Below the pieces are notes generated by a model. It saw only the letters and a list, made by a program, of their open reading frames with translations. It did no database searches and was not told the DNA's origin. Position numbers and translations under genes: made by a program. This document shows, one piece after another, positions 1 through 60,112 of a DNA stretch of 64,000 bases. Source of the DNA: Endomychus coccineus (taxonomy: Eukaryota; Arthropoda; Insecta; Coleoptera; Endomychidae). Each line of letters begins with the position of its first letter. Position 1 is the first letter of the stretch. The stretch is taken from contig OY294070.1 in assembly GCA_958510875.1 (NCBI GenBank), positions 114,680,703 through 114,744,702 of the forward strand, in the 5' to 3' direction.

Positions 1-2740
1 TTTGATCATGTCCAGAGGTGTATTCATTCTTAAGCTTTTTGATAGCAGTTACAATTTGTGATTGAATCATTGATACAATATTTAAAAATGTTGAGGTTGT
101 AGTATAGGAATCTTATATCCCTATAAGAGATTACCTAAAATCCCTAAATCATATAATGCGACCTTATTTCTATTAGTAATGTTATTAAGTATATGTTTAG
201 ATCTCATAGCTAAACCCACTTAACAATATGTTTATTAAACATATTGTTTGGCACAGCTACCTTGACATCTTAGACTAGATTAACTAGGACGATAACAATA
301 ACAGTATATGACATAATAGATATATACTTATGTAGGACATTCAGATATTCATACATCATTCATATAATAGTCATCAATCATTATTGACGGTGTTGTCATT
401 GATTTGTGTCTGTACAGTTGTTATTATGTAGAGCGAGATATTAAGTCATAATGGTGTCGAACTCTACGTTGAGTAAAGTGTAACTCTTTTTATATGTGTG
501 TGTTTCTATTCCTATACCTCCACCAGGACCACGGGTCAGCTTAGGGCAAACCGCCTGACTTTAAGAGCTGGTCCCCACAAGGTACCAAATGCTTCAACAA
601 TTTCTTCGGAATCATTTTATAGTGTTTCATTAAAATGCATAGAACCAGGAATTCTAGTCGTGTATATACATAATATTGGAAGATATGAAAAAAATATTGC
701 GAATGGTTCATAGCTGTATTCACGGCTTGATTTCCCGAGGTCGGTACTCACCTAGGTAGAAACTTCCCGCATAAGCAGACAAATACATGATATTCAACTC
801 GGAGAATGTACACATAAAAAAAAGGGCTAATCGTATTGAAGGCATCTGATATTGTTTCACTTTGGCCGTACATTCCCGATGGTGTTTCTAATACAAACTA
901 TCTGAATATATATTAATCCAGATTCTACGGTTCCGTAAAGTGCATCTGATAGAATTAAAGTGAACATTTTGTGAAGAAACAAGATATAAATTTGGTCATG
1001 CTTGGTAGAGCGAATTTAATAGGAAGCTGTGAATGTTATCTTATACTCATTTCTATTGAACATTATATATTATTTGTGGAATCAGTATTAGAAACATTTA
1101 TTTTTTCGAATTCAATCGAATTATAATCTCAATATCAGAGTCTATTACAATCCAAACTTCTCAATTTATGCACCTTTGTTCGCAGCTATATCATAAATTT
1201 CTTCGAAACAGTTTGTTCATCTGGAACAAAATCAAAGATTGAACGATGAAATCATTGAAATAATTGCCAAATTGATGGAAATCTGAAATTTGCTGCATGA
1301 ATGAATAATACTTGGATGAAAGCTCAAAATTTTGAATTACCATTTGGTCATGATTTTTTTTTTCATAAAAATATCTTTCATTTGAAGTTTGAAACCTGAA
1401 AAAGATTAAAGTAAAAAGTGCTTGAATGGCTTAGAGATTATATAATATTCTGGAACAATCAAATGAACAAATTACAGCTATTATCCACAAAGGTAAACAG
1501 GTTTCTTCAGAACGACCTGTAACACTGCAGCTCATAGATACGTTACTTTGGTCTCTCAAGCTAATCAATGAAGTTTCAGAAAGCTTAGAACATGTTACGC
1601 CATCTAACCGACAGTAAATTCCCCACTAAAATAATCAATGCATTGGCAACATTTTCTATTCATATTGACTACACGAGAATAAAATACCTCACAAGAAAAA
1701 CAGTTTTAAAACTTCGTCGTTCGATAAGAAAATGAAGTCTCGAACTTGATAATGAAAGGGTCACTACCTTGAGCTCAACTAGTCCGCCTACCTGGAATCA
1801 CTTGTGGTAGAATAACAGACAAAATTCCCGATAAGCCATGCAAATATCTATAGTAAAGGGAGAGGTCGCCCTCCATTCGACGATGTTCTAGCGACTTCAA
1901 TGAGTTCCTAAGTGTGAGCTAAACTCCATACGGTTGTAGGAAGATTGCCAAATTCTTCAAAATTCTAAATAGGGAAACATCGCGTCGTTACACACAATTA
2001 TCATTGGATTTCTTATTTCTCCTCTCAAATGGAAACACTAATAAACATAAAAATTCTCGATAAAGATGGCAACAAACTGTTGGAACGTCAAAACGAAGAT
2101 AAATTAATTAAAAGTAAAAAACCTTGATAATAACAACAAACGAAAAACTTTTATCCTAATGGTTCAAGAATATAGATCATAAAAAACTGTATTACAGCTT
2201 TAATAACCTAGAGTGATCAATTAGAACCATCGTTAAGATTATACAATATTTACTTAGATGTATAGATGATACTAAAAGGTTGTACCTACTGAGAATCGTA
2301 AAACCATAAACATGTGATTCTGTTGAATAATTAGCTTGGACTGTGATATGTACGATTCTCATCCCTAATTTTTTTCATAAGCACCTTACCATGGAAATAT
2401 CCATAAAAAAAGGGAGAGATCGCCTTTCTACGAAGTTCTGGGGGAGGTCAATGAATTTGCAGGTGTGACATCACCAACCGTGGGAATAGCTCTCCTGTGA
2501 ATATAATCTTCAAGTGTATTATAGAAGCTGGACTTTAAATATGTGAACAGTACTCCGAGCAAAGTAAAATCTGTGGTTTGTAGGTTATGAGAAACTGCTG
2601 GAATGGGGAGAACCTCTTGGACCGATATAGAAGACCAATTAGTTGAAAAGCGGTTTTTGCAATGAACCTCACATGATATACGTATGTAAGGTGTTATTGT
2701 TGGTGGTACCGAGCATACATATGGAGGACTTCATGAGAAA
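1..2740. other. Non-coding AT-rich stretch
   Basis: No gene or recognisable element is visible. Short open frames near 498-723 exist on both strands but show no family motif. A perfect 12-bp inverted repeat with a 3-base loop lies at 222-248. Two short segments, around 1855-1930 and 2405-2475, resemble each other (both read roughly 'aaagggagag.tcgcc' and continue alike), so part of this stretch is probably decayed repeat DNA. Confidence 0.5.
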
Positions 2741-2749
2741 AGTTGTCAT

Positions 2750-3960
2750 ATCAGTGATTTTGATATCCGCCTTCCTTAAAAAATCTAATCTTGAATTTTG
2801 ATTGCATCAAACTCTGTTCAGTTATCAGATCCACATTTTGAAGTTCTTGCTAGATTGAAATTGCATCGACATGTCCGCTGTCGTGCTTCTTTTGCTTTAT
2901 CGCCATCGAGTGATATAGGAGCTCTGGATGAGGAAGAAGCATATAATGTAACATTATCTACAATGTTCTAGAGGTAACTCCCAACAGATCGTTGATATGA
3001 AGCAGAAACAAATCTGGTGCCAAAGAAAATCCATGTGCGACACAAGCGTTAACTATATCGGAAAGGACTCCATCAACCACCATATGAAGTAAACTATCTG
3101 AGGAAAAATTTGGTACTTCACGACAAAGTTAGTGAGGCAAACCATATGACGGAAGGTTTCTAAGAAGGCCTTGGTGCCAGACCAATGCCCTTAATATACA
3201 GTACCAAAAAGAGGCTTTGAACAGAGCGATAGCTTTACCTAGGCTTTACAGGTGATAAATATCAGAATTTGATGGATATTCAGCTGGTTCATTTGGAAAA
3301 TTATATGTTGCACCTGTGCACCTATGCTCGCGTGATTTAACTTGTAATTGTAGATAAGCGTGTATAAGAGTGTGATGACTAAATGAAGTGTCATTATTAC
3401 AGCATTGTGCTAGCTACAACATCACTTCTGGCTTGTGTCGCCATGATTAAGTGTCCAGGACTTGTTTTGTAGAGGATATTGGCCAGTCTCTGTCAAATGA
3501 ACCGAAAATATCTGATGCTAGAGATTCTCCATATATTTGCCATACGTGTGCTACGTAAGGAAGCAACTCTCTTATTGATCTCTGCTGATGAGAGCCCTAT
3601 TGAAGTTCATTCACGATTTTCCAGCTCTCTCTGTTTATAAGATGAGTCCAATGATGATTGCCTTCTGCATTACTGTAGAGATCACAAATAATAGTGCAAT
3701 GGATCTATAATCATTGGGAAGTGTCTTCTTTCCTTCTTTGAATTGGTTACACTATAGCTGTCTCCCAGTTTGGAAGGAAACACTCTAAATTTTTGTGAAA
3801 GGGTAAAGAACCTGCAAAGAACTAGTGTTAATTATGGATTCCATTTCTTGAGATCAGCAGGCAGAATTCCGTCTGACGCCATCCCATAACCTTTTTTGGT
3901 ATATGGACCGAACAGAATATCTCGTCATTCAATGAAGCCACGGAAAATGTTAGTTGCTTA
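2750..3960 (-). pseudogene. Decayed non-LTR retrotransposon reverse transcriptase
   Basis: Read on the minus strand in shifting frames, the stretch gives reverse-transcriptase landmarks in the right order. Near 3790-3660 there is an 'NDYRSIALLFVISTVM' segment, the RPIALLS block. Near 3080-2990 comes a segment of the type 'SLAPDLFLLHINDLL', corresponding to the GVPQGxVLxPxLFxLxINDL block. Degraded sequence follows where YADD should be. Many stops and frameshifts show it is dead. The layout fits a Jockey/CR1-like LINE. A plus-strand fragment at 37952-38470 has the same RPIALLS block and may be the same family. The exact ends cannot be set by eye. Confidence 0.6.
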
Positions 3961-4733
3961 GTGCCAATATGACGACACCAATCAATGTAACAGATTACAA
4001 ATGAACAAATTGCTTTGTTAGGTATTATCTACAGAGGTGATTAGATTGCACTGGATGGACCAGTAATCTCAGAAGGTCATTTCCTATTGGATAAATGGTA
4101 TTTAATACTACGACAAAGATATACACGTTTTCCTCGGATGAGCAACAGCTGTCCGAAACTATTACCCGATTTGTCACTGGTCGATCTATTCTAATATTGT
4201 ATGATTTTGTCTATAAGTCTAGATGTAAACCTTCTACTTTTTTTGATAATGCAGTCAACAATCACAATGAAAGTGTTGTATGCAACAACTGTATGTGTTC
4301 CTGATATCTCTTATATTGTTATTTCTCATCTTACTCTGTTTGATAGAAGGTATCTAACGTGAAGAATTCTCACAAAAACGTAGACTCTCATCAAAAACAG
4401 GAATAAAATTCTATATACTCTTAAATAAAACAAAAGATTGGTATTGCAAATGCTGATGGCTGTCATTTATCGGACATACTCACAGTAATAATATTTATTG
4501 AATTATGTTCTTCATAACCATGATTTATTTTAAATTGTCGTTTATAATGATCTTTGGGAATATGAAGGATTGTTACAAGATGATCCCAATAACTCGTAAT
4601 CAAGAAAGCCGTGCATTCACATACCAAATAAAATAAATAAATGCAGTTTGCCAAGTGTTCATGCAATATATTAATTATCAAGTTTCAGTAAACCTTTTAA
4701 AAATGTATCTTTATGAGCGCTCAAGAGATAAAA
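3961..4733. other. Non-coding stretch
   Basis: No coding potential or element recognised. A 69-residue open frame at 4095-4304 has no family motif and no partner nearby. Confidence 0.4.
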
Positions 4734-5892
4734 AAATACGGGCAGTCACCGAGAACTGCTGAAAGAAGTAAAAACTGACATTATGAAGTAACCAATTTAT
4801 TTTATGTTATCTTTGAATTATTGTAGCATCCGAAATTACAATTTTATTATTTTCAAATGAAAATTAATATAATTAGTTTTTCTTCAGTTTTCACAACTGT
4901 CAGCATTTCAATCAACAATTATATACATTTTTATGTTTAATAATAAAAATCGTATAATGGACGGTACAATCCCTGTGAAGAGTATGAATGTAACCCGATA
5001 GCCATTATAATAAAAGTTGTGTTTGTACTTGTTGTTGTAATTTCAGTAAATAAAACTATTAGCTTTATACTTTTTAATAAAAGCGAATGTATCTCAACAA
5101 CGCTAAAAACTGTCATGTTATAAAAACAAACAAAAAACAACACATAGCAACGAAGCTGAACACAGAACAAAGTGATGAATAGAAAATAGATTGTGATTCA
5201 ACTCAAACCAATAAATACACATTATTTCATTTTCAAAACATATTGTTTAATGATATTTACATCGATGTAAATAAAAGTAATGCTAAACAGCATTTTCTTC
5301 ATTTGCGTCGTCATTATCGGTAACGTCGACGATACTTAAACTATGAGATTAGATCCAAGCATGAAACATACTGTGGAATCAGGTTTGCTTATATATAAAA
5401 ACAGGCTACTATTACCGAGCACACATTATTTAATTATTACTTTTTACTCTGTAATAATTAAAGTATGTATTGTATTGCAAGAAAAGGTTCATTTTTCCAG
5501 TTAGCATAGAAATATAACTTTCGTCTGCACGAGGACGGAGGATTGAGTAATTGAATAACGTCGAGTATATGCGTGCTGTTGCAGCTGAATACAGTGTATA
5601 GTGTGTATACGCAGTGTATACGTATACCTGTCCTGTATACCGTAATCGAGAGCACTGACTCACACAGGCAGGCTCACCAACACCGACTGAGATATGCACA
5701 CATGTGTAAGCGTATAGAGAGACTGCCTGACGCCTGACACGAGTCCCGTACGGCCGCAGTTGCGCACGCAGCAGTATACATAATACCTAATATATATAGC
5801 CACAGCGTGACAGGACGTGACAGACTCATGGTTTTACCCCTCATCTGAAATAGCCCAACGCGCCTAAAGAAGTTTTCACTTCAAAAATTATT
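4734..5892. repeat. Helitron-like interspersed repeat, copy 1
   Basis: Starts with 'atacgggcagtcaccg' and ends near 'cttcaaaaat'. It is closely similar to 7549-8842 over both outer parts, but lacks the 270-base middle piece that carries a PIF1-helicase fragment in copy 2. A perfect 18-base palindrome built on ATCGAT lies at 5255-5272 and is kept in copy 2 at 8117-8134. Near the low-coordinate end the minus strand can pair 'gcagt' with 'actgc', a small hairpin as expected near a Helitron 3' end, but no clear CTRR terminus is seen. Likely a non-autonomous derivative. Confidence 0.6.
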
Positions 5893-6479
5893 GTACTTTG
5901 TACGTTATATAATCTCACAGCAAATATAACTATTGGAATGAAGGTGGAAATTTAAGTGTTCGTATCTTTAGAAAATAAACATTATCAAATATACTATAGT
6001 CGACGAAATGAAGCACAACAACGCTCTAAAATGAGACTAAATTTTAAAACTAGTTGTAACAAACCCTGATAAAATGCACCTTGAGGTAAGTATATTGATC
6101 GTAATAAAACGCCTAAGTAATAATTTTATTTCTTTCCACAAAATAAAGAAAGAAATGATAAGAGTAATTTATTAATATTTTAAAACAAATGAAATGAAAA
6201 TAATTTAGACTTGATTTTTACTGGCAGTTACTAATTAGTCACGGTAAAACAGAAGAATAATAATTTTTGAGCATCAAATTGTTATTGCAAATTGTATAAC
6301 AACCTAATAAACTATAACAAGTATAACAACTATAGCAATTCGGTAAATACCTTGTTGAATGATGGTCGCTATGAATAGATTTCAAAGAACCCTTCATCTA
6401 AATTCGTTGAATTAGTGAATCATTTTTCGCTATAATCTCCAATCATTTAAAATAATAACTTTCGGATCTTTACCTTCCT
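5893..6479. other. Non-coding AT-rich gap
   Basis: AT-rich sequence between a repeat and the Penelope-like copy. Nothing is recognised. Confidence 0.4.
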
Positions 6480-7548
6480 AAACCTTATTACTTAGGTACC
6501 CAATATTGATGAACCAGGTAATTTCATGAGACCATTCACACACTAGTTGTCCCACGTATAACCTGACAAAATGATTACTTGAAGAATTTATCAATTTCCG
6601 TGTTGCACCAACTTTAGCTGTGAAGAATTCTTCAGAGCTAATTGGAAAATTGAAATATATCAAACTTGAACCTGATGATACTCTCGTTTCATTCAATTTC
6701 GTTTCGCTATTTACAAATACTCCAATGAGTATTTGAGTACGATAAACGTTCTGAAGAATTGGCTTTCAAATAGCAATATTCCAAAACAAACTACACAGAA
6801 TAAGTGCTCCTTATACGTCTTTATGTATGGAGCAAATCATTTCACTTTTACCGAAAGCTACTATGAACTAACAAGCGGATGTGCAATGTGCAATCCACAC
6901 TATTTTCCTAAACGAACTCACTAGAACTGAATTAAACCACTTTCCGAAAGTATGGCAAGGTTTGACGATGATATTTCCGCGAATATAAGTAAGATTTTGA
7001 TTTACAAGACTTTTTGAACACGCTCAATAGACAATTCGATTCATTCAAATTCACTGTCGGAATAGAAACAGATAACCAGCTCCCTTTCCTTGATATTAAC
7101 ATTACAATAGATGAACACATGGAATTCGACATATACAAAAAATCCACTCAACCAAATAGTTATACTCCTGTGGATTCATTCAAACCAATTAATTATGACA
7201 TAGTTCCATTTAATTGTCCATAGAACTTTTAACGAAGTTGTGAAACTTCAGCAAATAGCATTGGACAATAGTTACGACAAATCTTCGATCAATAATTTAA
7301 TCTCTAGACAAAAAAGGAAAATGGACCCAGGTCATTAACCAAACTAGAGCAACTACCTTCAAATATTTGAAAAGAATTAACAAGTTTTACTATTCATCCT
7401 TCAGTAATCAATAAATTCCAGTTTCCGACTTCGACAAATTCGGGATTTACAAAATCGATTGAGTCGTGTTCAAATTGCTAGCTATGTGGGCCAAACTGGA
7501 AGGAATATTCTAACTAGGTATTGAGAACAGTTTGCCCATATAACAAAA
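6480..7548 (+). pseudogene. Penelope-like element (lineage A), RT to GIY-YIG, first part
   Basis: Shifting frames on the plus strand give consecutive Penelope-like landmarks. These are a 'LVSFNFVSLFTNTP' block near 6690, 'ESYYELTSGCAM' near 6860-6890 (normally followed by GxPLSP), 'NQLPFLDINI' near 7075-7105, and 'EFDIYKKSTQPNSYTP' near 7125-7175. The start of the GIY-YIG endonuclease ('CSNC.LCGPNWKE') lies near 7470-7510. Stops and frameshifts make it inactive. The minus-strand copy at 31935-33335 is the same lineage and shows what the unbroken order should be. The element is interrupted at about 7548 by an inserted repeat and resumes at about 8843. Confidence 0.75.
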
Positions 7549-24116: not shown

Positions 24117-25627
24117 GTCTAATTATTCATTATAGTTTGATTGAGGCTATGTAGGTCCAGAACAAGACATAAATCGTTCCATGATCTGCTACATTTCACC
24201 AAACATCAAATACCTACCTGTAAGTCAATATGTTTATGTTTTTCTATGTAATTTATCTGAAATAGAATGATAACTCTCAACGCGATATCACATGTTTCTC
24301 ATTAGCTAGGCAAATCAGGCAACAATACGGTCAATAGATATATGATGTAATACTCACTCTTCTTCGGTTGAGACACTAACATATTCATAAAGCACTGTGA
24401 TCGAGGGTAGTTGATAAAAACACTTTCAATCGGAACAAATATGAATTATTTAATGATAATAAAGAAATAAAATAATTTAAACAATTGATTAATAGTTGAA
24501 AGATTAAGTAAAACTGAAGAATTAATTAAGAAATAAAGTTAAATTTAGAGAACTATTAATCAATCCTTAGTTTTAAAATTAACCTTATTAGATCCTAGAT
24601 ATGAAGTGGAAATTCAACTCAGCCCGGATGTACCAGGGTAAAAAGTTAAACAAAACTATTATGATTTAATTATTCGAAGAATTCTAAATTTTATGTATTC
24701 AGCAATATGACTTGATTATAGATACCATAAACATCACAACGCAAGCTTAACTAGAAATCTTGGAAAGTTTACCAAAATATGATTTAAGTGATTCGTGAAA
24801 TAGTCAAAGCAAGATTTAACTCGAAAAGTTAGAATATAACTGACTTTATTTTGGTGAGTTTGGTTTTTTATAATCTTGGATATCATATAATAACAATATA
24901 CCCAATAAGAGAGAGACTTGCCACAGTCTAATGAGCTGGATACAAAAGAATTATTCTATTTTTGTTGACAGGGAACTTGATTTTATGACCTTATTTAGAC
25001 TTCCTTGAATTTAGGTATGAATGAAAATTATGTCAACACAATATTCTAATTACATGTTTAATAAGAAACGACTACAACCTGCACGTCTTATGTTATGGTT
25101 ACGTGCATAGATTGTAGCTTCAAAGGGAAAGACAGGGTTAAAAACTTTTGTTCAAACCATAGCAAGTGATCCACTTGCCGTTTCGAATTAGATTACGAAA
25201 ATATGTCCCAACTACCAGTATACTGTAAAGCACTTGTTTTCTTTAGAACCATTCATGTTAACTAATTTATGATTTCTTATTCAAACTGTGAGGAACCTCT
25301 TCGACTTTTTCGATATTTTTCAAATCATAATGATCCATCCTTGACAAGGACTCAGAGACTATACATTTCGTTTCCGTCCCACAGGTACAAAGAACAAACT
25401 TCATTAATTTATTATAGGACGGTCGTACTAAGAAATGAACTCATGTGCTTGACTTGTCCGTGATAAAAGGCAACAAAAAATATCCTATTTCTATTTACAT
25501 TCACGGGTCTTCTCAGAATCAGCTTGAATTTTAGCAAAACTTATTTGATATCTGAATGAATTCGAATTGATAATTTATAAGGCAACTTTGCCACAATTTG
25601 AATCCCTAATATATTCAATCTGTTCAT
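24117..25627. other. Upstream region of the NACHT-ankyrin gene
   Basis: About 1.5 kb of AT-rich DNA without transposon signatures. An upstream exon or the promoter of the gene at 25647 should lie here or farther upstream, but none can be identified by eye. Confidence 0.4.
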
Positions 25628-25637
25628 TTTGTTTCAG
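25628..25637 (+). promoter_or_regulatory. Candidate 3' splice site before the NACHT-ankyrin start
   Basis: The polypyrimidine-AG sequence 'tttgtttcag' ends at 25637, ten bases before the first ATG. The frame stays open back to this AG (codons for Gln-Glu-Tyr-Val just before Met), so an upstream exon could be joined here. That exon may be non-coding or may add residues. Confidence 0.5.
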
Positions 25638-25646
25638 GAATATGTC

Positions 25647-28600
25647 ATGGATAGAGGATCCATAAATCTGGGTCATAAATACGAATATGCTATAGCAGCC
25701 TTAATAGCATTAAGGTTATGCCTCGAAGATGAAATAAATGATTTCAAGATGTCTCTGTTTAATAAGAAGTATGGAAAATTTGACGATATAGTGTTCGAAT
25801 ATGATCAACGGGAGAGGAAGCATAGTATAGCCTTGCAGTTAAAACATTCGTATAAAACTATTACAAAGGAGACATTAGAAAAGGAATTCAAACTGTACTT
25901 GAAATCTGCCCAGAAATACAAATTACTTGATAGTGATGTCAATTTGGTGCTTTTCAATAGTCGCAATGTTGATAGCCGTATAAAAGTTATATTAGATGCT
26001 GTAGAATTAGAGGCAGTCGGTTGTTCCAAATCAGACGTCATAGAAGCAACTTCGAAGAATGACGTTATAACCAAATTAGTTAACACTGTGGATGAAAATT
26101 GTAATTACTTGAAAATATTCCGACCACAAAACGACGCATTTCTCAACTTCTGCAATTCGTTCAAATTGTTTTATAATCAAGCATCACTGAAGAAAGTGAG
26201 ACAAATCATAAACGATGAAGTTACGAAACGAATTACGTATGGAAAACAGATTGAGAAGGATATTGGTATTGAATTATCCAATTTTGTGGCAGAGTCGGTG
26301 GAAAATGACAGAAATCAAGGTTACAAATTGTCCAAAGAATGTATCATTCTTTCAATGCTCGAACATATCCTTGACCCCCATATCATACGTCCCGAAAGTT
26401 TTGAAAATGCTCACTATGAAGTAACAAATGTGTGGATTCAGATTTTATTGCAATTCAAAATAACAATAATAAATACTTCAATTTCGAACACTGCCATTTA
26501 TGACAGGTTGATCAAAATTATCTACAACAACAAGCTTAACCTCCCAATTTTAGAACAATCTTGTGCGACGCCTAAGATTTCTGGAGGAAAAAAAAAGCTC
26601 GTAGCAGATTGGAAAGCTGGGAAGGTACCACTTATTATGGATTCTAAACAAGACGATCATCTCGTATTGATTGATAATTGTATAGATCACGCCAAAAAAG
26701 CTCAACGATCTTTCGTAATTTTTACAGATCAAAGGGTTCGAATTGATGATTTGAAGAATAAAGGTTGCCTCACTCGCCTAAAACATGTCCAACAATTGAA
26801 AAAATTATTTCCAGAACTATTGGAGCAAAAAATAGAAATACAAAATAGGTTCACTATTTCTCTAGACACAATTTTGGAATATAACAAAACAAAAATAATC
26901 AACTTACCAATAGGATACATCCTGGAGCTGACCGTTCCACAGAAAACGGATGTACAAATTCAACCAGAAGAATACGTATCAAGAAAATTGAAGAAGTTGA
27001 ATCTAAGTTACAATTCGGAAGATATGTACATGAATAAAGGCTCAATTATTAAGGAGAAGGATTTATTCATGAAATCTAGAGATGAAAAAATAACCTGCAT
27101 CGTAGGCGACCCAGGTATGGGAAAAACGCGACTAATGAGAAATTACGAGGATAAGTGCCCTAAGGATTATTGGTGTGTGTTGATAGATTGTGCACGTCTT
27201 TCGAGTATTTTCGATGAAGAACTTAGCACTATCGAGGATCTTCCTACATTTTTCGAACAGTTTGTACAATATGAAGGAATAGAAGATGCATTATTCAAAT
27301 CATTCCTCAAAGTGAGGAAGATTGTAATTCTATGGGATGGACTAGATACAATTTCCAATTTGGGGAATGCCCTTAAAATTATTCGAATCCTCTTCTGCAA
27401 AAAAATACCTCAATGGATTACAATCAGAACACATCACACAGAAAATATTCATGAAAGCTTGCAGCCTGATGTTGATCTCTTCCAATTGGAACAGTTATCG
27501 GATAGTGATAAAAATCACTTGATTCAGAAGCATATTCATGGAAGTCATGGGAAAGCTAACGAGATATTGCAAGAAATGTCGAAGCAAACAGAAGAATTCG
27601 ATAACTTGATGGTAAACCCTCTATATTTGACCATGGTCTGTGAATTATTCAGCCAGGAAAGACTTCCGTTGAAACATATTGAAATTTCTGATCTGTTCGA
27701 AATCTTTACGAGTGAAAAAATTAAAAACCGATTTGAAATAGACAAAATATCAGAATTTATGTACAACGAGTTTTTCAGACCACATCTCAATGTCTCTCCT
27801 AATCATGATCTTCTGGCAACTACTGGATATTTTACGCGCTCTAAAACAATTTTACATCCTATTTTCGGTGAATATTTCGCATCCAGATTTTTGGCGGAAC
27901 AGGTGATGGCGAACTCAAAATCATCACTTCCAGATGGTGAATTAGATTCTTTACACATTGTTATTAAAGAGGTTTCTTTTCAACCTGAATATCGTACGTT
28001 ATACAGATTTCTAAATGGTATTTTAACAAAAAAACACGATTTACATAGAGCTGTTTTGAATTCAGATTTGACGGCTATTCAAAGCTTAATAAAAAATTCA
28101 CGTTCATCAAAAGATTCTGGCGGTCGCACACCTCTTCATTTGGCGGCTCAATTAACGTATGAAGGAAATGGAAAACAGAATTTTGAGATTTTAAGTGAAA
28201 TTATTGATATCCTGTCTGGAGAAAATATTGATGTTCATACATCAAAGGATTTATTTTGTTACACGCCTTCCCAATACGCTTTCCATATGAAAAACTTTGT
28301 TGTGCTGGATCTTTTTCTACTAAAATGTCAACCAAATACAATAAGTTTCCCCTTTCAACCAGATGATTTAAGAAACATACTCATGTATGGATGCGTTAAT
28401 ATCATGGAATATTTGATAAATCAGAAACATTTGAATCTGTCTGATCTCAACGAACCATTACATATAGCAGCTGAACGTGGATTTTTGAGAATGATAAAAT
28501 TATTTCTGCAACATGATTTCGATGTCAATAGTACCGATTCTAAAGGACGAACACCGTTGATGCGTGCAGTCTTGGGGGGACATTCAGGAATAGTGGAATT

Positions 28601-30002
28601 CCTATTATCACTTGAACATATCCGAGTCAATGCTCTTAATAAGTCAGGAGATACAGCATTACATACAGCAGCTAAATTGGGGAGACTGGATATTCTGGGG
28701 AGACTCATTGATAAAAAGTCAGAAATTAACGTAAGGAACAATTATAGGCAAACACCAATATTCCTTGCTACCAAAAATGGACATCATGATGTAGTACAGA
28801 GATTGTTAGATTTTGAAGCAAATGTGCATATCCGAGATGAAAATGGAATGACACCCTTGCACATTGCCGCCAGCTCAGGAGCGTTAAAATGTATACAAAT
28901 TCTATTTGAAGGGTCCATTGATATTAACGCTGAAAATAAACATACTATGCAAACACCAATATTTCTTGCAATCAAAAATAGACATTATGATGTAGTACAG
29001 AAATTATTAGGATATGGAGCCAATATTGATATTCAAGATGAAGAAGGGATGACTCCTCTTCACATTGCCGCCAACTCAGGAGTGGTAGACTGTGTACAAA
29101 TTCTAATTGATAGTTGTAGTAATATTGATTGCAGAACTTTTCCAAAAAAAAAATCTGAAACTGCCAGAACATTCATCACAAATTTTGCACCAAACATATT
29201 GGATCATGCTACCCCTTTGTACGTAGCGACGCAAAGTGGACATTTGGATGTGGTGGAACTGTTAATTCAGGCTGGAGCGGACGAAAAATGTTTATCCAAG
29301 AATGGTTGTACGTTGTTGCATGCAGCTGTGAGTAGTTGTTCCGAAAAAACAATGAAGTATCTTATCGAAAGTAGAAGGCATAACATAAATGTCGCCGACA
29401 ACAATGGCGACACATTACTTCATATAGCCGCCGGAAGAGGCTTCGAATTTGGAGTGAAAGAGCTACTTAAATCAGGAGTGAATGTAAATGCGTTGAACAA
29501 AAATAAACTTACTCCTTTAGATTTAGCCGTGTGTGAGAAACAATTAGATATAGTAAAAATATTAATAGAAGAAAATGCAATAGTGGATAATTTGAATATT
29601 CGGGGGAATACCACGCTTCACGAAGCAGTTCTTCGAGGATATGTAGATATAACCAATGCCCTCTTGAGAAAATGTGCACCATCTATCAAGAGGGCTTTGT
29701 TCGACTTGATAAATGTCGAAGGGGATACAGTGTTCCAGATAGCATCAGGATCACCAGAAATGTTACAAGCCTTGTTGAATCATGTGCCGACCGACGAACC
29801 AACATCAACACCATATGGAATACATGTTCGTTATGAATCCGCTAGTTCTAATTATGAGATTTTAGAACCGATGAAGAAACGAAATGTGAATTCTCTAGAG
29901 GCAAGTTTTAAAACCAGAGGATATACTAGATTTCTTTCGCAACTAAGACAACGATATGAAAAATCACAAGTTCCACCCATTAATCATTCTGAGCATTCAT
30001 AA
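25647..30002 (+). CDS. NLR-like protein: nuclease-like N-domain, NACHT NTPase, ankyrin repeats
   Basis: A 1451-residue frame with no interruption. The start is ATG 25647, with a purine at -3 and G at +4; residue numbers count from it. Residues 1-170 carry 'GKFDDIVF' (Asp46, Asp47) followed by 'ALQLKH' (Gln64, Lys66), the D-(x)n-QxK pattern of PD-(D/E)XK-type nucleases; nuclease activity is inference. Residues about 480-770 form a STAND/NACHT-like NTPase: Walker A 'GDPGMGKT' (487-494), Walker B 'IVILWDGLD' (559-567), 'MVNPLYLTMVCELF' (665-678), and 'HPIFGEYFASRFL' (747-759), as in NACHT winged-helix regions. From about 797 to 1400 there are about 16 ankyrin repeats with TPLHxAA cores, the probable sensing part. 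No signal peptide or membrane segment is seen, so it is probably cytoplasmic or nuclear. By analogy it could be an innate-immunity switch, but no function is shown. It is the only large intact host-type gene in the window. It might be virus-borne, given the shared 3' flank at 47245. Confidence 0.85.
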   Translation: MDRGSINLGHKYEYAIAALIALRLCLEDEINDFKMSLFNKKYGKFDDIVFEYDQRERKHSIALQLKHSYKTITKETLEKEFKLYLKSAQKYKLLDSDVNLVLFNSRNVDSRIKVILDAVELEAVGCSKSDVIEATSKNDVITKLVNTVDENCNYLKIFRPQNDAFLNFCNSFKLFYNQASLKKVRQIINDEVTKRITYGKQIEKDIGIELSNFVAESVENDRNQGYKLSKECIILSMLEHILDPHIIRPESFENAHYEVTNVWIQILLQFKITIINTSISNTAIYDRLIKIIYNNKLNLPILEQSCATPKISGGKKKLVADWKAGKVPLIMDSKQDDHLVLIDNCIDHAKKAQRSFVIFTDQRVRIDDLKNKGCLTRLKHVQQLKKLFPELLEQKIEIQNRFTISLDTILEYNKTKIINLPIGYILELTVPQKTDVQIQPEEYVSRKLKKLNLSYNSEDMYMNKGSIIKEKDLFMKSRDEKITCIVGDPGMGKTRLMRNYEDKCPKDYWCVLIDCARLSSIFDEELSTIEDLPTFFEQFVQYEGIEDALFKSFLKVRKIVILWDGLDTISNLGNALKIIRILFCKKIPQWITIRTHHTENIHESLQPDVDLFQLEQLSDSDKNHLIQKHIHGSHGKANEILQEMSKQTEEFDNLMVNPLYLTMVCELFSQERLPLKHIEISDLFEIFTSEKIKNRFEIDKISEFMYNEFFRPHLNVSPNHDLLATTGYFTRSKTILHPIFGEYFASRFLAEQVMANSKSSLPDGELDSLHIVIKEVSFQPEYRTLYRFLNGILTKKHDLHRAVLNSDLTAIQSLIKNSRSSKDSGGRTPLHLAAQLTYEGNGKQNFEILSEIIDILSGENIDVHTSKDLFCYTPSQYAFHMKNFVVLDLFLLKCQPNTISFPFQPDDLRNILMYGCVNIMEYLINQKHLNLSDLNEPLHIAAERGFLRMIKLFLQHDFDVNSTDSKGRTPLMRAVLGGHSGIVEFLLSLEHIRVNALNKSGDTALHTAAKLGRLDILGRLIDKKSEINVRNNYRQTPIFLATKNGHHDVVQRLLDFEANVHIRDENGMTPLHIAASSGALKCIQILFEGSIDINAENKHTMQTPIFLAIKNRHYDVVQKLLGYGANIDIQDEEGMTPLHIAANSGVVDCVQILIDSCSNIDCRTFPKKKSETARTFITNFAPNILDHATPLYVATQSGHLDVVELLIQAGADEKCLSKNGCTLLHAAVSSCSEKTMKYLIESRRHNINVADNNGDTLLHIAAGRGFEFGVKELLKSGVNVNALNKNKLTPLDLAVCEKQLDIVKILIEENAIVDNLNIRGNTTLHEAVLRGYVDITNALLRKCAPSIKRALFDLINVEGDTVFQIASGSPEMLQALLNHVPTDEPTSTPYGIHVRYESASSNYEILEPMKKRNVNSLEASFKTRGYTRFLSQLRQRYEKSQVPPINHSEHS
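28748..29110 (+). repeat. Duplicated two-ankyrin module, period 201 bp
   Basis: 28748-28948 and the segment starting at 28949 are similar in DNA ('gcaaacaccaatatt', 'gatgtagtacaga', 'cacattgccgcc') and in protein ('QTPIFLATKNGHHDVVQRLL' against 'QTPIFLAIKNRHYDVVQKLL'). The period of 67 codons equals two ankyrin units, and the DNA similarity shows a fairly recent in-frame duplication. Confidence 0.8.
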
Positions 30003-30219: not shown

Positions 30220-30960
30220 AGTAGTATTGGAAAAGAATTTTGAAAAATAAAAACTATTTTAAAAAATAAAGTTTTGTTAAAGGAAGAAATTGTCTTTTTC
30301 AGCCTTTTCTTTATTGAAATTTTATAAATGCTTTTTTTGTAAATATTTCATTTATAAGTAATTATATAGGAAATTGTATTCAAATTTCATATTTTTTTCT
30401 ATTTACTAATATAATTTAAACTTTGAAATTAATGAAACACATGTTCATTCAATTGTTATTCAGTGAATAAAGTTTTATTCTATTAAAAGCTTTTCATTCT
30501 TAGATGAAATCTTTCAAGAGTATTTTTGAAATTTTTTATAATAAATTTCAATAATGAATTTATTAAATTCTTATGGTTTTTGAATATAACAAAATTATTT
30601 GTTTTATAATTAAGAATTAAATTCTAGAATAATTTGTAAAAAATTATTAAACATTTCCTTTTGCAATTAATTGAATAAATATAAAATTTGAATATGTTAA
30701 TTATCCATTATAAAAATATGTGAAATCATTCTAAGAATTTTCTTAATTTAGATTGAGAGAAATGTTTTTATTCTCATTATTCTTAAGAAAAAATTTATTG
30801 AATTATATTTTATTAGTATTGGAAAAGAATTTAGGAAATAAATATCACCTCAATAAATAGTTTTGTTGAAGTGAAAAATTGTCTTTTTCACCATTTTTTT
30901 GGTGAAATTTCAAATTCTTTTTGGTGAAAATTTCTAATTTCTTGATGATTTTAGCAGAGG
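30220..30960. repeat. AT-rich repeat downstream of the NACHT-ankyrin gene (also at 47245)
   Basis: 30220-30705 matches 47245-47700 along nearly its full length, for example 'gaagaaattgtctttttcag', 'ttttcattcttagatgaaat' and 'aaattcttatggtttttgaa'. A second partial unit starts at about 30785 ('agtattggaaaagaattt', 'aaaattgtctttttca') in the same orientation. The period inside this locus is about 590 bases. Possible poly(A) signals AATAAA for the upstream gene lie at 30246-30251 and 30265-30270. Confidence 0.75.
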
Positions 30961-42262: not shown

Positions 42263-42314
42263 ATTATGATGAGCTGATGAGGAATGAAATGTGAATAATC
42301 ATAATGATTGTAAT

Positions 42315-43019
42315 ACATTCAGAAACGTGTTTCAGCATTCAGACACGTGTTTCAACATTCAGACACGTGTTTCAGCATTCAGACACGTGTTTCAGCATTC
42401 AGACACGTGTTTCAGCATTCAGACACGTGTTTCAGACACGTGTTTCAACATTCAGACACGTGTTTCAGCATTCAGACACGTGTTTCAGACACGTGTTTCA
42501 ACATTCAGACACGTGTTTCAGCATTCAGACACGTGTTTCAGCATTCAGACACGTGTTTCAGCATTCAGACACGTGTTTCAGCATTCAGACACGTGTTTCA
42601 GACACGTGTTTTAACATTCAGACACGTGTTTCAGCATTCAGACACGTGTTTCAACATTCAGACACGTGTTTCAGCATTCAGACACGTGTTTCAGCATTCA
42701 GACACGTGTTTCAACATTCAGACACGTGTTTCAACATTCAGACACGTGTTCCAACATTCAGACACGTGTTCCAACATTCAGACACGTGTTTCAGACACGT
42801 GTTTCAGACACGTGTTTCAACATTCAGACACGTGTTTCAACATTCAGACACGTGTTTCAACATTCAGACACGTGTTTCAACATTCAGACACGTGTTTCAA
42901 CATTCAGACACGTGTTTCAGCATTCAGACACGTGTTTCAGCATTCAGACACGTGTTTCAACATTCAGACACGTGTTTCAGCATTCAGACACGTGTTTCAG
43001 ACACGTGTTTCAACATTCA
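42315..43019. repeat. 20-bp minisatellite with E-box palindrome, about 35 units
   Basis: The unit is 'gacacgtgtttcaacattca' or 'gacacgtgtttcagcattca' (20 bases). In several places a 13-base form occurs in which 7 bases are missing. Every unit contains the palindrome ACACGTGT, with the E-box CACGTG. Because 20 is not a multiple of 3, all three plus-strand frames stay open and produce long but meaningless repetitive frames (42291-43115). The array ends about 120 bases before the packaging-ATPase start. Confidence 0.95.
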
Positions 43020-43113
43020 TGCCTATTTAACATGTATTTGATACCTGATTTTGACAGAAGCGTAGAAGTACCTAACCGCGCGATCAGACATACACAATAT
43101 AACATCATCATCT

Positions 43114-43123
43114 AGTATATAAA
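43114..43123 (+). promoter_or_regulatory. TATA-like box before the packaging ATPase
   Basis: 'agtatataaa' lies here, and the identical ten bases recur at 46141 before the putative minor capsid gene, suggesting a shared viral promoter element. With transcription starting about 30 bases downstream, the first ATG (43141) might be skipped in favour of ATG 43174/43177. Confidence 0.45.
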
Positions 43124-43140
43124 CAAATGCTTATTAACAT

Positions 43141-43866
43141 ATGTTCCAGTATGATATCGATTCGCCTTCAGGCATGATGAAGATTGTTAAGCAAAAAGAC
43201 TCGTTGAGTATTATGAACTTAGGCTCAAGCAATGAGAATGTTGAACAACCACAACGTCACAGCTCTTTGCTGCCTAATACTCTACGAACAATAATCTGTG
43301 GTCCAAGTAATTGTGGGAAAACAAATGTGATGTTATCTCTATTGTTAGATGCCAACGGCCTGAAATTTGAAAACGTGTACATATATTCAAAGTCTTTACA
43401 CCAACCAAAATACCAGTTACTAAAGGAGACATTGAAGAAAATTGAGGGGCTTGGATATTTTCCTTGTACCGAAAGTGATGAGGTCATAGACCCCACAGAA
43501 GCGAGGCCTAATTCAATCATAATATTCGATGACGTGATGTTTGAGAAACAGCAGAAAATTCGTGCTTATTTTTCAGGAGGGAGACACAACTCAATTGATA
43601 GTTTCTATCTTTGTCAGTCTTTTGCTAAATGTCCAAAACATGGATTGCGCGACAATGCCAATTGCTTGATTATTTTCAAACAGGATGAACTCAATTTGAA
43701 ACATATATTCACCGATCATGTAAGTACCGACATGTCACTCGAGAAATTCAAAGAGATATGTAGCGTATGTTGGAAAGATAAATATGGATTCCTTATGATA
43801 AACAAAGACTGTGATATGAACAAAGGACGTTATCGCAAAGGGTTTGATAGTTATATATACATCTAA
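43141..43866 (+). CDS. A32-like genome-packaging ATPase (Polinton/adintovirus type)
   Basis: A 241-residue intact frame. Walker A 'GPSNCGKT' (about residues 55-62), followed by 'NVMLSLLLDANGLKFENVYI'. Walker B 'SIIIFDDVMF' lies near residues 123-132, with a following 'YFSGGRHNSIDSFYLCQSFA' block. This is the FtsK/HerA-superfamily DNA-packaging ATPase seen in Polintons, adintoviruses and relatives, where it pumps the genome into the capsid. Length fits the family. It opens a compact, intronless group on the plus strand; the next ATG lies one base after its stop codon. The frame is intact, so the insertion is either young or under constraint. A TATA-like box lies 20 bases upstream, and ATGs at 43174/43177 are alternative starts. 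Confidence 0.85.
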   Translation: MFQYDIDSPSGMMKIVKQKDSLSIMNLGSSNENVEQPQRHSSLLPNTLRTIICGPSNCGKTNVMLSLLLDANGLKFENVYIYSKSLHQPKYQLLKETLKKIEGLGYFPCTESDEVIDPTEARPNSIIIFDDVMFEKQQKIRAYFSGGRHNSIDSFYLCQSFAKCPKHGLRDNANCLIIFKQDELNLKHIFTDHVSTDMSLEKFKEICSVCWKDKYGFLMINKDCDMNKGRYRKGFDSYIYI

Positions 43867-43867
43867 C

Positions 43868-44842
43868 ATGTATAACATGGACGTGGGTGTGAGTAACATG
43901 CTAAAGGAAAAACAACAATTGAAGAAAAAAATTTGGGAGTTAGCAAACGTTGTGAGGAAAAAATATATGGCTGTGAAATTGGGTAAAGCTGAAAATGATG
44001 AGATTCAAGATAATATGTTCAGGAATGTATCTAAACCCCTAGAGGAAATTGCGAGAAATGCTGAAATAATCAAACAAAATTCGTTGGTTAAACCTAGAAG
44101 TATTGTTTCTACAGCAACACAAATGGAGAACATACCAATCCCAAATATTGTAACTGAAGGTGAAGAATTCGTATATAACCCTCAAGATACTGAGGAGGAT
44201 GTGTTTACACCCGAACCTACTATCGATCAGATTCGTGAAGAATTCAGAAAACATAAGAAAGATAATGCAGCGGCTACAGAGGAGTTTCTGCAACAATACC
44301 CCACATTAGCACGTTATTACTTGGAAGGATTCCTATTGGATGATGATGTTAAGAGATATGATGATAAAATGGGTTTGAAATATAATTCAACTTTAGACAA
44401 ATGGTTCATGGGTAATCAACCTATAGAGATTGATAGTGAGAGTAATATAATTATCAAGGGTACTCCGTTCAAGGGTACCACAGGACTGTATAATTTGATA
44501 TTTTACAGAGATGTTCTACCTGATACTTACACTGTGGAAGATGGGAAAAATTACAGTCAAATGATGGAAATGACTAGTGCCCATAGACGTAATAACGATC
44601 CAGCTGATCGAATAAGAAACATTGTAAAATACAAAAATGTACTGAAACCTTTGATTAATTCCATGAAAAAACCCAGAGCCAAAACATACACTGGAAGTGC
44701 ATATATCAAAAATGATATGCTTGAATATAACGAGAAACCTATCGAATACGTTTATTGGGATGACGTTAACGAAATGGTGGATAGACTGAGACTTCTTGTT
44801 GCATCCTCGCATGCAGGTAACCATAATCATCACAAGAGATAA
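43868..44842 (+). CDS. DUF8207-like viral protein
   Basis: 324 residues from ATG 43868, one base after the ATPase stop codon (TAA 43864-43866). The N-terminal third is charged and helical ('MLKEKQQLKKKIWELANVV', probably coiled). A middle block 'DKMGLKYNSTLDKWFMGN' and 'GTTGLYNLIFYRD' leads to a conserved 'DPADRIRNIVKYKNVLKPLI' segment. It ends in 'YVYWDDVNEMVDRLRLLVAS' near the C-terminus. From memory of the family this combination matches DUF8207 proteins, which are common beside packaging ATPases in Polinton- or adintovirus-like insertions of animal genomes. The molecular role is unknown; a structural or core role is only a guess. A TATA-like run (tatatata, 43852-43859) precedes it. Confidence 0.75.
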   Translation: MYNMDVGVSNMLKEKQQLKKKIWELANVVRKKYMAVKLGKAENDEIQDNMFRNVSKPLEEIARNAEIIKQNSLVKPRSIVSTATQMENIPIPNIVTEGEEFVYNPQDTEEDVFTPEPTIDQIREEFRKHKKDNAAATEEFLQQYPTLARYYLEGFLLDDDVKRYDDKMGLKYNSTLDKWFMGNQPIEIDSESNIIIKGTPFKGTTGLYNLIFYRDVLPDTYTVEDGKNYSQMMEMTSAHRRNNDPADRIRNIVKYKNVLKPLINSMKKPRAKTYTGSAYIKNDMLEYNEKPIEYVYWDDVNEMVDRLRLLVASSHAGNHNHHKR

Positions 44843-44923
44843 TCTCTATAATAGAAGAATTGATAGAGGCAGGGGTAATTGAACAAAAACCAGGTGTAAG
44901 ACAAATTCATCATAGTTATAAAG

Positions 44924-45451
44924 ATGGTTTCAATGGATAAGTTTGGCAGAGCCTCCTCTTCCATGTGGATATATGATACAAATGTATTTAATAATAATTT
45001 CAAACAAGTTCACGGACAAGGATTATTCCTAACGAGCGATGGAAGTTATGATATGGAAAATCGTAGATTGTGCAACGTAAAATCACCGAATGATGATGGA
45101 GATGTTGCAAATAAAGTATATGTTGATAAATTAACACACAAACTGAATCTGAAAACGGAAACCAGTCTTAAAGATACCTTCAATGTTAGGGTTGATAATT
45201 TGATCAAAGATATCAACAAGGATCTGGATGAACATAACTTAACGAATGAGAAGGTTATTCTCAACATTGATAAACATCTGATGGACATTGAGAATAGATA
45301 TAATGGAATGGGGATCTATATAAAATCAGAGTATAAAACAATCAGTGATAGTGTGAGGGAAAACAGAAATGAATTGAAAGAGATCATTAACACATTTAAC
45401 AGTGTGAACATGCGTCTAAATGACATTACTAGTAAAGTGGAGGCGTTATAA
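44924..45451 (+). CDS. Fibre/spike-like coiled-coil protein
   Basis: 175 residues from ATG 44924 (a second ATG at 44933). Residues about 40-70 read 'GSYDMENRRLCNVKSPNDDG' then 'DVANKVYVDK'. This is the 'xYDxxxxRLxNVxxPxxxxDAxNKxYVD' motif found at the start of phage tail-fibre and similar trimeric fibre proteins. The remainder is a heptad-rich, highly charged region (about 75-175) compatible with a trimeric coiled coil. It could be a capsid spike or fibre, or a tegument-like protein. It lies between the DUF8207-like gene and a basic small frame. The frame ends with TAA, but six bases later the same frame reopens with an ATG (45458), so this stop may have cut off a basic C-terminal tail. Confidence 0.6.
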   Translation: MVSMDKFGRASSSMWIYDTNVFNNNFKQVHGQGLFLTSDGSYDMENRRLCNVKSPNDDGDVANKVYVDKLTHKLNLKTETSLKDTFNVRVDNLIKDINKDLDEHNLTNEKVILNIDKHLMDIENRYNGMGIYIKSEYKTISDSVRENRNELKEIINTFNSVNMRLNDITSKVEAL

Positions 45452-45457
45452 CGACGG

Positions 45458-45577
45458 ATGACATCTGTGGAACCTTCTAAGAAGAGACCCTCATCATCCA
45501 CAACTACAAAGCAGGGCTCTGTGAAACGTATATCTCCAAATCCTGTGAATATACCCAAAAAATTAATTCTACACTAG
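45458..45577 (+). CDS. Small basic peptide frame, possibly the lost tail of the fibre-like protein
   Basis: ATG 45458 to TAG 45577, 39 residues, in the same frame as the preceding gene. It is rich in Ser, Lys, Arg and Pro ('MTSVEPSKKRPSSSTTKQGS', then 'VKRISP'). No homology recognised. Either a short DNA-binding peptide or the former C-terminus of the 44924-45451 protein. Confidence 0.35.
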   Translation: MTSVEPSKKRPSSSTTTKQGSVKRISPNPVNIPKKLILH

Positions 45578-45594
45578 ATTTCCACATTGATAAG

Positions 45595-45699
45595 ATGAGT
45601 AGAGAACAAGTTTTGCATGAGCTTCATGAGCACAGAAGAAAGAACTTTTACCAGCGTCGAACATACATAAAAGGACTTCAATATAGGTGGAAGGGGTAG
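45595..45699 (+). pseudogene. Remnant of retroviral-type integrase of the viral element
   Basis: A 34-residue frame 'MSREQVLHELHEHRRKNFYQ' followed by 'RRTYIKGLQYRWKG' and a stop. It resembles the segment just before the catalytic core of Polinton/adintovirus-type integrases (xELHxPxRKNFxRRxVxVxGxDxxWQADL). The stop replaces the WQADL part and the DDE core is absent. If right, the element once carried an integrase and has lost it. The match is short, so the call is tentative. Confidence 0.45.
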
Positions 45700-46140
45700 G
45701 AATATGCAATACGACTAGGACGATGAATCAAGAGTCAAGATTGAGATATTTGAAACATATATTGTTAAGATTATACTTCAGTCTTTTGTATTGAGAAAAT
45801 TAATAAAAAAAATTATTTTGAGATCTTTGGTCTTCCTCCCACCCCTCGTTAAATAACGGTGCAATCTTGAATTCTCATCAGTCTGTATGGAAGCGTGCGT
45901 GTGAGAAGTTGTTCTCAATACGCTTATAAACAAGCTCATGTTTGAACTTCATATTCCTGGTTATCAATACCAGGTGCTAAATTAGAAGAACGGTTGATGA
46001 GATCCAGGGTATCAATTCATTCGATAAAGCTTGCCGTCTACACGATATTTCATGCAATATAACACTTATAATTGTAGCCAGTTATATTTGGAATTCCTCT
46101 CTAACTCTTCAGTTGTGGTCGACTAACATTGCACTTTATT
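45700..46140 (+). other. Spacer between viral genes
   Basis: About 440 bases without a convincing frame. An A/T run with 'aataaaaaaaattattttg' near 45802 could hold a poly(A) signal. Confidence 0.4.
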
Positions 46141-46150
46141 AGTATATAAA
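46141..46150 (+). promoter_or_regulatory. TATA-like box before the putative minor capsid gene
   Basis: 'agtatataaa', identical to 43114-43123. Its distance to ATG 46161 is too short for a usual transcription start, which favours ATG 46179 as the true start. Confidence 0.45.
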
Positions 46151-46178
46151 TAGATTGTTGATGAAGTTTTCATCAATC

Positions 46179-46922
46179 ATGTCTCAGACGTTCACTATCA
46201 CGGGTAAGAGCTCCCGCTTATCTGTAGATTTTCACCCACCTATAGAACTAGATCCTCATTCATATTATTCTATCGCACTTGTTGGTTTGCATACGTACAA
46301 TAGCATCCCGAACATTGAAGAAGGTTTTAATAAATTTTATTATGAAGATGTGAAGGGTGAGGAAAAAGTAGTTACTATACCTACGGGGTCCTACGAGTTG
46401 ACAGACATCGAAGATTTCATACAAAGTACAGTTTGTGGGATAGGAGTGAAGCAAGAAGAGCGTGACCGGAAATTATCAATAAAATCTAACAACAACACTC
46501 TACACACAGAGCTGAAGAGTGATTTTAAAGTGAATTTTATTCCTAAAGATAGTATAAGCGAACTGTTGAGATTCAGCAAAAAGAAATTGACATCTCGTGA
46601 ACTACACGTATCTGATCGACCTATAAACATAATCAAAGTTCAAACTATACGTGTTGAGTGTAACTTAACCGCAGGAGCATATTATAACAATAAGATAGCT
46701 CATACGATATATGAGTTCTCACCTCTTGTACCACCTGGGTTTTCCATTGATATAAAGCCGAAGAATCTTATTTATCTACCGGTCATCAGCAAGACGTCCT
46801 TCGATAACATCACGCTGAATATTTTAGATCAGAATTGGAAACCGGTAAATTTTCGTGGAGAAGAAATTATTATACGATTGGAATTGAAAAAGATCGCTAG
46901 GGATTATGGCTCACAACAATAA
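46179..46922 (+). CDS. Putative minor capsid (penton-like) protein of a Polinton/adintovirus-like element
   Basis: 247 residues from ATG 46179 (the frame also allows ATG 46161). The sequence is rich in beta-strand patterns. It opens with 'MSQTFTITGKSSRLSVDFHP' and contains 'YSIALVGLHTYNSIPNI', 'IPTGSYELTDIEDFI' and 'VECNLTAGAYYNNKIAHTIY'. It ends with 'ILDQNWKPVNFRGEEIIIRL' and 'ELKKIA'. From memory, proteins with IPTGSYExxDIE and FRGEEIxxRLxLK are widespread in aphid, spider and cnidarian genomes next to packaging ATPases of this type. A single-jelly-roll minor capsid (penton) role is the likely reading but remains inference. The frame is intact. Confidence 0.6.
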   Translation: MSQTFTITGKSSRLSVDFHPPIELDPHSYYSIALVGLHTYNSIPNIEEGFNKFYYEDVKGEEKVVTIPTGSYELTDIEDFIQSTVCGIGVKQEERDRKLSIKSNNNTLHTELKSDFKVNFIPKDSISELLRFSKKKLTSRELHVSDRPINIIKVQTIRVECNLTAGAYYNNKIAHTIYEFSPLVPPGFSIDIKPKNLIYLPVISKTSFDNITLNILDQNWKPVNFRGEEIIIRLELKKIARDYGSQQ

Positions 46923-59500: not shown

Positions 59501-60112
59501 CTCAAATCACCCAGAGTCACATCAAGGCTCGTCAAAGAATGCAGGGACACACTGGCTGAACTAGCTAGGAGAAATAAAGTTCAACTCATCTGGGTCCCCG
59601 GACACAGCGGAGTTGCAGGGAACGAAATGGCCGACTCTCTGGCCAGGCGAGGGTCGTCTAGCTCCCCTATCGGGCCGGAGCCAATGGTCGCTTTATCAAA
59701 CTGCGTAGGTGGCCTCGCCCTTTTGGACCAACTAAATAAAGAGTGGTCTAAACTGTGGCGAGAATCACCACGCATGAGGCAGGCCAAGCTCTCCATCAAA
59801 GAGCCTGTGCCTAGGCTCTCAAAAAAACTCCTTTCTCTAAGCAGAAGGGACATCCGAGAGATGACTGGAATCCTAACCGGTCACTGTCGTCTTAACAAAC
59901 ATCCCCACACTATGGGCATCGCAGATGACCCAATATGTAGGAAATGCAGAGAGGTGGAAGAAACTGCCTCTCACATCCTGTTGGAATGCCCAGCGTTGGC
60001 ATCCCTCAGGCACCGACACTTTGGAGAATCAGAACTGCTCCCGGAGGAACTTATGGGAGCCGGCACTAGCAGTATTCTGGGTTTCTGGCGGGCCACAAAC
60101 CTGCTAGAATAG
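56545..60112 (+). pseudogene. LINE ORF2: endonuclease, reverse transcriptase, RNase H, zinc knuckle
   Basis: Starts at ATG 56545 with 'MTVKFLQINLQHGKSST', an AP-type endonuclease start. A stop at 56725 and a shift precede 'LGCDANAHHTMWGSSDVNPR' (56956-57015), then 'SDHRHILFD' (57169-57195) ends the endonuclease. The polymerase region shows 'YKSPGEDGIFPALLQE' (57874-57925), 'GVFMDIEGAFDN' (58220-58255), 'GCPQGGVLSPLLWCLVVDGL' (58399-58458) and 'AYADDLAG' (58494-58520). Near 58030 about 14 residues are missing: 'FIPKTGLTSFLLK' lacks the RPISL block. After a shift near 58860 come RNase H motifs 'VWFTDGSK' (59283), 'QAEVYAI', 'CTDSRSAL' and 'GNEMADSLAR', and a CCHC 'CRKCREVEETASHILLEC' (59937-59990). 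It is inactive because of stops, shifts and the polymerase deletion. Confidence 0.85.

Follow-up and report, generated by a model that had tools for sequence, protein, structure and literature searches.

The locus described here raises the question of whether an insect can encode a protein that joins a nuclease to an immune-receptor-type ATPase and to ankyrin repeats, a combination that is unexpected in insects. It lies in a 64,000-nucleotide stretch of the genome of the beetle Endomychus coccineus (GenBank assembly GCA_958510875.1, contig OY294070.1, positions 114,680,703 to 114,744,702 of the forward strand), hereafter called the window, and consists of a gene of 1451 codons. We consider it fairly probable, from structure prediction and residue conservation, that this gene encodes a STAND (signal transduction ATPase with numerous domains) switch protein of the NLR (nucleotide-binding leucine-rich-repeat receptor) type with a built-in nuclease effector.

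In the accessible part of PMC4986451, arthropods are described as apparently devoid of NLRs, and that of PMC3308963 states that none have been reported in protostomes. The initial annotation of the window likewise stated that insects are generally thought to lack classic NLRs. This view does exist in the literature, but it is too strong, because NACHT homologues throughout arthropods and crustaceans were reported in 2016 alongside a prophage WO NACHT-ankyrin-latrotoxin protein (PMC5062602, accessible part). Termite NLR- and NACHT-containing sequences are also mentioned in an excerpt of PMC3712931. NACHT proteins in arthropods are already known, and the nuclease domain constitutes the new element; no report of an insect or animal nuclease-NACHT-ankyrin protein was found in the open-licence literature by title or abstract opening.

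Domain architecture of the predicted protein

The translation of the frame contains no internal stops in the standard code, in agreement with the initial annotation. Its length is far beyond chance, because the longest ATG-to-stop frame reached no more than 219 codons (mean 126) when the window was simulated 100 times with a first-order Markov model and both strands were considered. The GC content at the three codon positions is 0.444, 0.303 and 0.315, and the gene start agrees with that of its relatives, MDRGSINLGHKYE being aligned to RSGTTDRGKEYE and RAGTTDKGKDYE. Conservation was read from two alignments, A3 and A5, of 25 rows each (the window piece and 24 of 32 relatives). Relatives without an N-domain or with a cut one, together with some further ones, were excluded, and near-duplicates such as P0009 and P0011 were kept; the counts given below therefore hold for the chosen set only. 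The features of the gene are as follows.

25647-30002 (+): whole coding frame, comprising the nuclease-like domain, middle region, NACHT nucleoside triphosphatase (NTPase) cassette and ankyrin repeats (translation, chance control)
25647-26360 (+): predicted PD-(D/E)XK nuclease domain, residues 1-238
25683-25685 (+): Glu13, candidate active-site acid of helix A (Glu in 16 of 17 lettered rows; 8 of 25 rows gapped)
25782-25787 (+): Asp46-Asp47, just ahead of the strand at residues 48-54 of the model (Asp46 in 23 and Asp47 in 25 of 25 rows)
25836-25844 (+): Gln64-Leu65-Lys66 (QxK), at the end of the strand at residues 57-66 of the model (Gln64 in 24 and Lys66 in 25 of 25 rows)
26361-26966 (+): middle region, residues 239-440, common to the beetle relatives (conserved W322, P328, D368 and L369; several low-confidence model stretches)
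27063-27539 (+): NACHT/NB-ARC NTPase domain, residues 473-631 (Pfam, model, fold matches)
27105-27128 (+): Walker A, GDPGMGKT, residues 487-494 (G490, G492 and K493 in 25 of 25 rows)
27336-27347 (+): Walker B core D564-G565-L566-D567, within ILWDGLDT (D564 and D567 in 25 of 25 rows)
27540-28193 (+): residues 632-849, the helices and winged helix of the NACHT cassette (the NLRC4 alignment extends to model residue 399, which is residue 849)
28302-29726 (+): ankyrin-repeat array, residues about 886-1360 (Pfam; matches to ankyrins both among solved structures and within the beetle's own genome)
28745-29126 (+): two tandem copies of an ankyrin unit of two repeats, each copy 181 nt long, with 78% identity and a spacing of 201 nt
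25620-25637 (+): acceptor-like, pyrimidine-rich site CTGTTCATTTTGTTTCAG, ending 9 bases 5' of the ATG

The N-terminal domain was proposed in the initial annotation to be nuclease-like on account of a D46/D47 pair followed by Q64-x-K66. These residues are present in the translation and are kept in the family, and the predicted structure of the domain has the PD-(D/E)XK core fold, so that the fold, as predicted, is a nuclease-related one. The predicted core consists of a helix at residues 8-26, strands at 30-37, 48-54 and 57-66, a helix at 74-90 and a strand at 98-104. Its nearest folds are Avs3, DUF4297, Cap4 and LmuA, and the nearest nuclease folds are bacterial and come from antiphage systems. 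The conserved D...QxK residues are placed by sequence as a putative active site, to which Glu13 could possibly contribute.

The middle of the protein matches the NACHT cores of NLRs, and its model has the succession of nucleotide-binding domain, helical domain 1 and winged-helix domain seen in these receptors. The Walker A and B pair is complete, as had been claimed, and in the HPIFGEYFA segment H737 and E742 are conserved in 24 of 24 lettered rows. A profile search gave a divided answer at this region: Pfam NB-ARC passes at residues 473-705 (26.1 bits, cut-off 23.5), whereas Pfam NACHT falls just under its threshold at residues 483-631 (25.0 bits, cut-off 26.7); in a six-frame genome search the NACHT match rises above the cut-off (29.7 bits). 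The nearest NTPase folds are mostly NLRs, and several of them are oocyte proteins (NLRP2, NLRP7, NLRP9 and NLRP14) and not pathogen sensors. A phmmer search of residues 451-825 against PDB sequences gave only weak ABC-transporter matches (best E 1), and Foldseek against viral structures returned nothing at E 0.001. At the C-terminus, the ankyrin matches are strong; 13 PF00023 stretches pass individually in Pfam, in place of the about 16 repeats first counted.

The signals flanking the frame are weak. The pyrimidine content of the acceptor-like site is equalled at 47 of the 1650 YAG sites (Y, pyrimidine) on the + strand, and the site is a weak signal for that reason; judged from these letters, it may hint at an upstream exon and at a gene that is not a processed retrocopy. 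Two AATAAA motifs follow the frame, at 30246 and 30265, which has little meaning because the sequence is so AT-rich.

Relatives and genomic surroundings

Single-sequence searches of the protein database recovered 14 and 23 proteins (the latter including the query), with about 8000 candidates scored in each. The relatives number 32, and all 17 that carry a species name are from darkling beetles (14 from Zophobas morio, 2 from Tenebrio molitor and 1 from Tribolium madens), with an identity to the window protein of about 20-26%. Most are titled 'uncharacterized' or 'hypothetical'. The other 15 come without species (12 from JGI, 1 from ENA and 2 from an lgn source); since P0031 corresponds to one Tenebrio record and one JGI record, the JGI relatives are read as probable beetle DNA. 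The FDD...QLK motif went undetected by pattern in 9 of the 32 relatives, and some matches are partial. Three of the Zophobas proteins, P0025, P0024 and P0026, bear the consecutive source names Zmor_017353, 017354 and 017355, which suggests a tandem cluster in this species. A tree was computed with 18 of the 33 proteins, the 15 others having been dropped when motif patterns missed one or both segment ends; the place of the window protein in it is unsure, because its end branch measures 3.27 changes per site.

In its own genome (906 Mb), the gene is found at 114.7 Mb on the 143.6-Mb contig C5. A search with residues 1-474 at a threshold of E 10, in which all 3 candidates were scored, recovered the gene itself only, as did a NACHT family search at a threshold of E 0.001 with all 26 candidates scored, run without an Apaf-1 NB-ARC positive control. 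With the full-length protein, at least 36 other matches were obtained (32 of 153 candidates scored), all to the ankyrin part, the lowest query residue being 886. An FDD motif at the start of the unplaced contig C128 (69 kb) was considered as a paralogue and rejected as a chance occurrence, for no QxK follows it and the search with residues 1-474 had found the gene alone. This contig start shows dense frames, low-complexity stretches and look-alike frames at 2546-4150 and 4751-5998, and is perhaps viral. TTAGG telomeric repeats stand at 4 of 6 examined ends of C1, C2, C3 and C5; together with the mitochondrial tRNA order of C129 they are consistent with an insect and speak against flies, moths and lacewings.

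Outside the beetles, NACHT relatives occur at at least 22 loci of prokaryotic genomes, and among the matches listed none aligned before residue 417. A Pfam scan of five of these loci revealed, at L036, an Mrr-type nuclease (residues 357-469) and a NACHT domain (1209-1375) in one frame and far apart, and at L050 a sub-threshold NERD match. The L036 frame (1596-7523) belongs to Chlorobiaceae; at L045 (3792-6410, Methanosarcinales), NACHT is accompanied by HEAT repeats, and a nuclease-like D...GVQLK lies upstream by pattern only. Neither the 50,697 phage nor the 72,556 plasmid records contained a match to the N-domain and NACHT query at E 0.01, and a scan of viral contigs gave three loci that match from residues 802, 826 and 937 on, chiefly in the ankyrin array.

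The window contains 18 open frames of at least 150 amino acids, and fragments of reverse transcriptase and of Tc3-type transposase lie near the gene. The statement that almost no other coding sequence is intact is approximately true, as most of the other frames are pieces, but a retrotransposon without long terminal repeats at 57010-60112 (+), whose GC content is about 0.5 against 0.33 around it, retains frames of 618 (reverse transcriptase) and 417 amino acids (RNase H). In addition, the frame at 43141-43866 (+), of 241 amino acids, belongs by its Pfam match to the poxvirus A32 ATPase family (8.4e-6, 25.9 bits, cut-off 22.8). It stands in a cluster of + strand frames at 42304-46922, which may be what is left of a virus-like or Maverick-type element.

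Proposed mechanism and alternative readings

The domain order, both folds and the conserved nuclease and NTPase residues are supported by prediction and conservation. From these we infer that the protein switches between nucleotide states, oligomerises and cuts DNA or RNA, that the ankyrins sense a trigger, and that the role is an immune one. In the resting state, the NACHT cassette would probably be ADP-bound and the protein closed. Binding of a ligand by the ankyrin array would release the closed state, and the released NACHT domains could then take up ATP and oligomerise. The oligomer would gather several Cap4/Avs3-like PD-(D/E)XK domains, with the result that nucleic acid is cut. Intracellular parasites or mobile elements are the likely triggers. 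That the gene represents a class of insect NLRs that cut nucleic acid as their direct answer to invasion, the animal equivalent of Avs3 with ankyrin recognition, expanded in some beetles, is a tentative proposal to which we give somewhat under an even chance. If it is true, an antiphage-type nuclease resides inside an insect receptor, bacterial and animal immunity are tied by a common effector, and insects gain a candidate intracellular sensor. The function of an insect NLR-like protein would then become directly testable in laboratory Tribolium, Tenebrio and Zophobas. The initial interpretation of the gene as an insect STAND protein with a nuclease effector is partly supported; an immune or genome-defence role is a putative one.

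Several results weigh against a nuclease-bearing switch protein. The N-domain of the window protein has no relevant Pfam match and no PADLOC match, PADLOC nuclease profiles being matched by segments of 3 of the 8 relatives tested, and a family profile recovered zero nucleases among PDB sequences. The models, built from 25-row alignments, have middling mean predicted local distance difference test scores of 72.2 and 74.2. When the protein database was searched with a profile of alignment A1, nothing came up at E 0.001 among 7989 candidates scored, a null that we suspect to be due to word selection. Residue 568 (27348-27350), beside Walker B, is Thr, whereas the 24 relatives aligned with it have Glu in 23 cases and a gap in one. 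Finally, the ratio of nonsynonymous to synonymous rates (dN/dS) between the two ankyrin-unit copies is 0.59 (11.5 synonymous against 27.5 nonsynonymous changes in 60 codons), indistinguishable from neutral (simulated P 0.32).

The N-domain might keep its nuclease fold to bind nucleic acid or serve as a scaffold, in which case the protein would signal by oligomerisation and through partners without any cutting. The oddity of Thr568 fits with this, as does the match of Pfam PF22722, 'NACHT-associated inactive Restriction Endonuclease 1', to L036 (2.5e-5, under the cut-off). However, Asp47 and Lys66 are invariant, and Gln64 and Asp46 nearly so, at about 20-25% overall identity, which one would not expect of a dead site, and we regard a non-cutting protein as unlikely, if worth keeping in mind. 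A working NLR-like nuclease with a role other than immunity, for example in developmental programmed cell death or transposon control, seems to us slightly less likely again, given that the nearest nuclease folds are antiphage ones, that NLRs make up most of the nearest NTPase folds, several of them being oocyte proteins, however, and that Zophobas morio has 14 different proteins, as in immune-receptor families. Neither fold likeness nor copy number decides between an immune and a non-immune role.

It is quite improbable that the gene is decaying, either open by luck or recently inactivated and without present function. The near-neutral dN/dS of the internal repeat, surroundings rich in broken mobile elements, the long branch and Thr568 would suit such a gene, but 1451 codons are open, and the active-site and Walker residues are conserved despite the low identity to relatives. 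It is hardly credible that the gene was recently acquired from a bacterium, a Wolbachia phage or a virus, or that it is contaminating DNA of such a source. The nearest nuclease folds are bacterial, and the prophage WO NACHT-ankyrin protein has arthropod homologues (PMC5062602, accessible part); against this, the gene is placed at 114.7 Mb in a contig of 143.6 Mb, its N-domain and NACHT region is without phage or plasmid match at E 0.01, the listed prokaryotic matches do not reach its N-domain, and every species-named relative is a beetle.

Comparison with known systems

The prophage WO protein, compared here by its description, has NACHT followed by ankyrins, as in the window protein, and then a latrotoxin C-terminal domain; a nuclease N-domain is not mentioned in the accessible part of PMC5062602, and the search of the phage records was negative. 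The tenebrionid proteins of Zophobas, Tenebrio and Tribolium share with the window protein the FDD...QLK N-domain motif, NACHT and ankyrins (most of them, by precomputed Pfam), under names that do not describe a nuclease-NLR. The nucleases Cap4, DUF4297 and LmuA are fused to SAVED, or paired with a HerA or SMC-like partner, whereas the nuclease-like domain of the window protein is fused to NACHT and ankyrins.

For the most part, animal NLRs are regarded as adaptors by which caspases or kinases are brought in. Compared with NLRC4, NOD2 and NLRP3, the window protein has no CARD, PYD or death domain among its Pfam matches, a predicted PD-(D/E)XK domain standing in their place, and ankyrins instead of an LRR sensor, with no LRR among these matches. 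It is not a canonical animal NLR, because it has neither a death-fold domain nor LRRs. Avs3, a bacterial antiviral STAND protein (PDB 8dgc), senses phage terminase through a TPR-like sensor. The window protein has ankyrins and no TPR family among its Pfam matches, and it is not a member of Avs3 because the sensor differs; the domain order is shared, while the NACHT core resembles that of animal NLRs. If the predictions hold, the window protein may work in the manner of both Avs3 and the NLRs.

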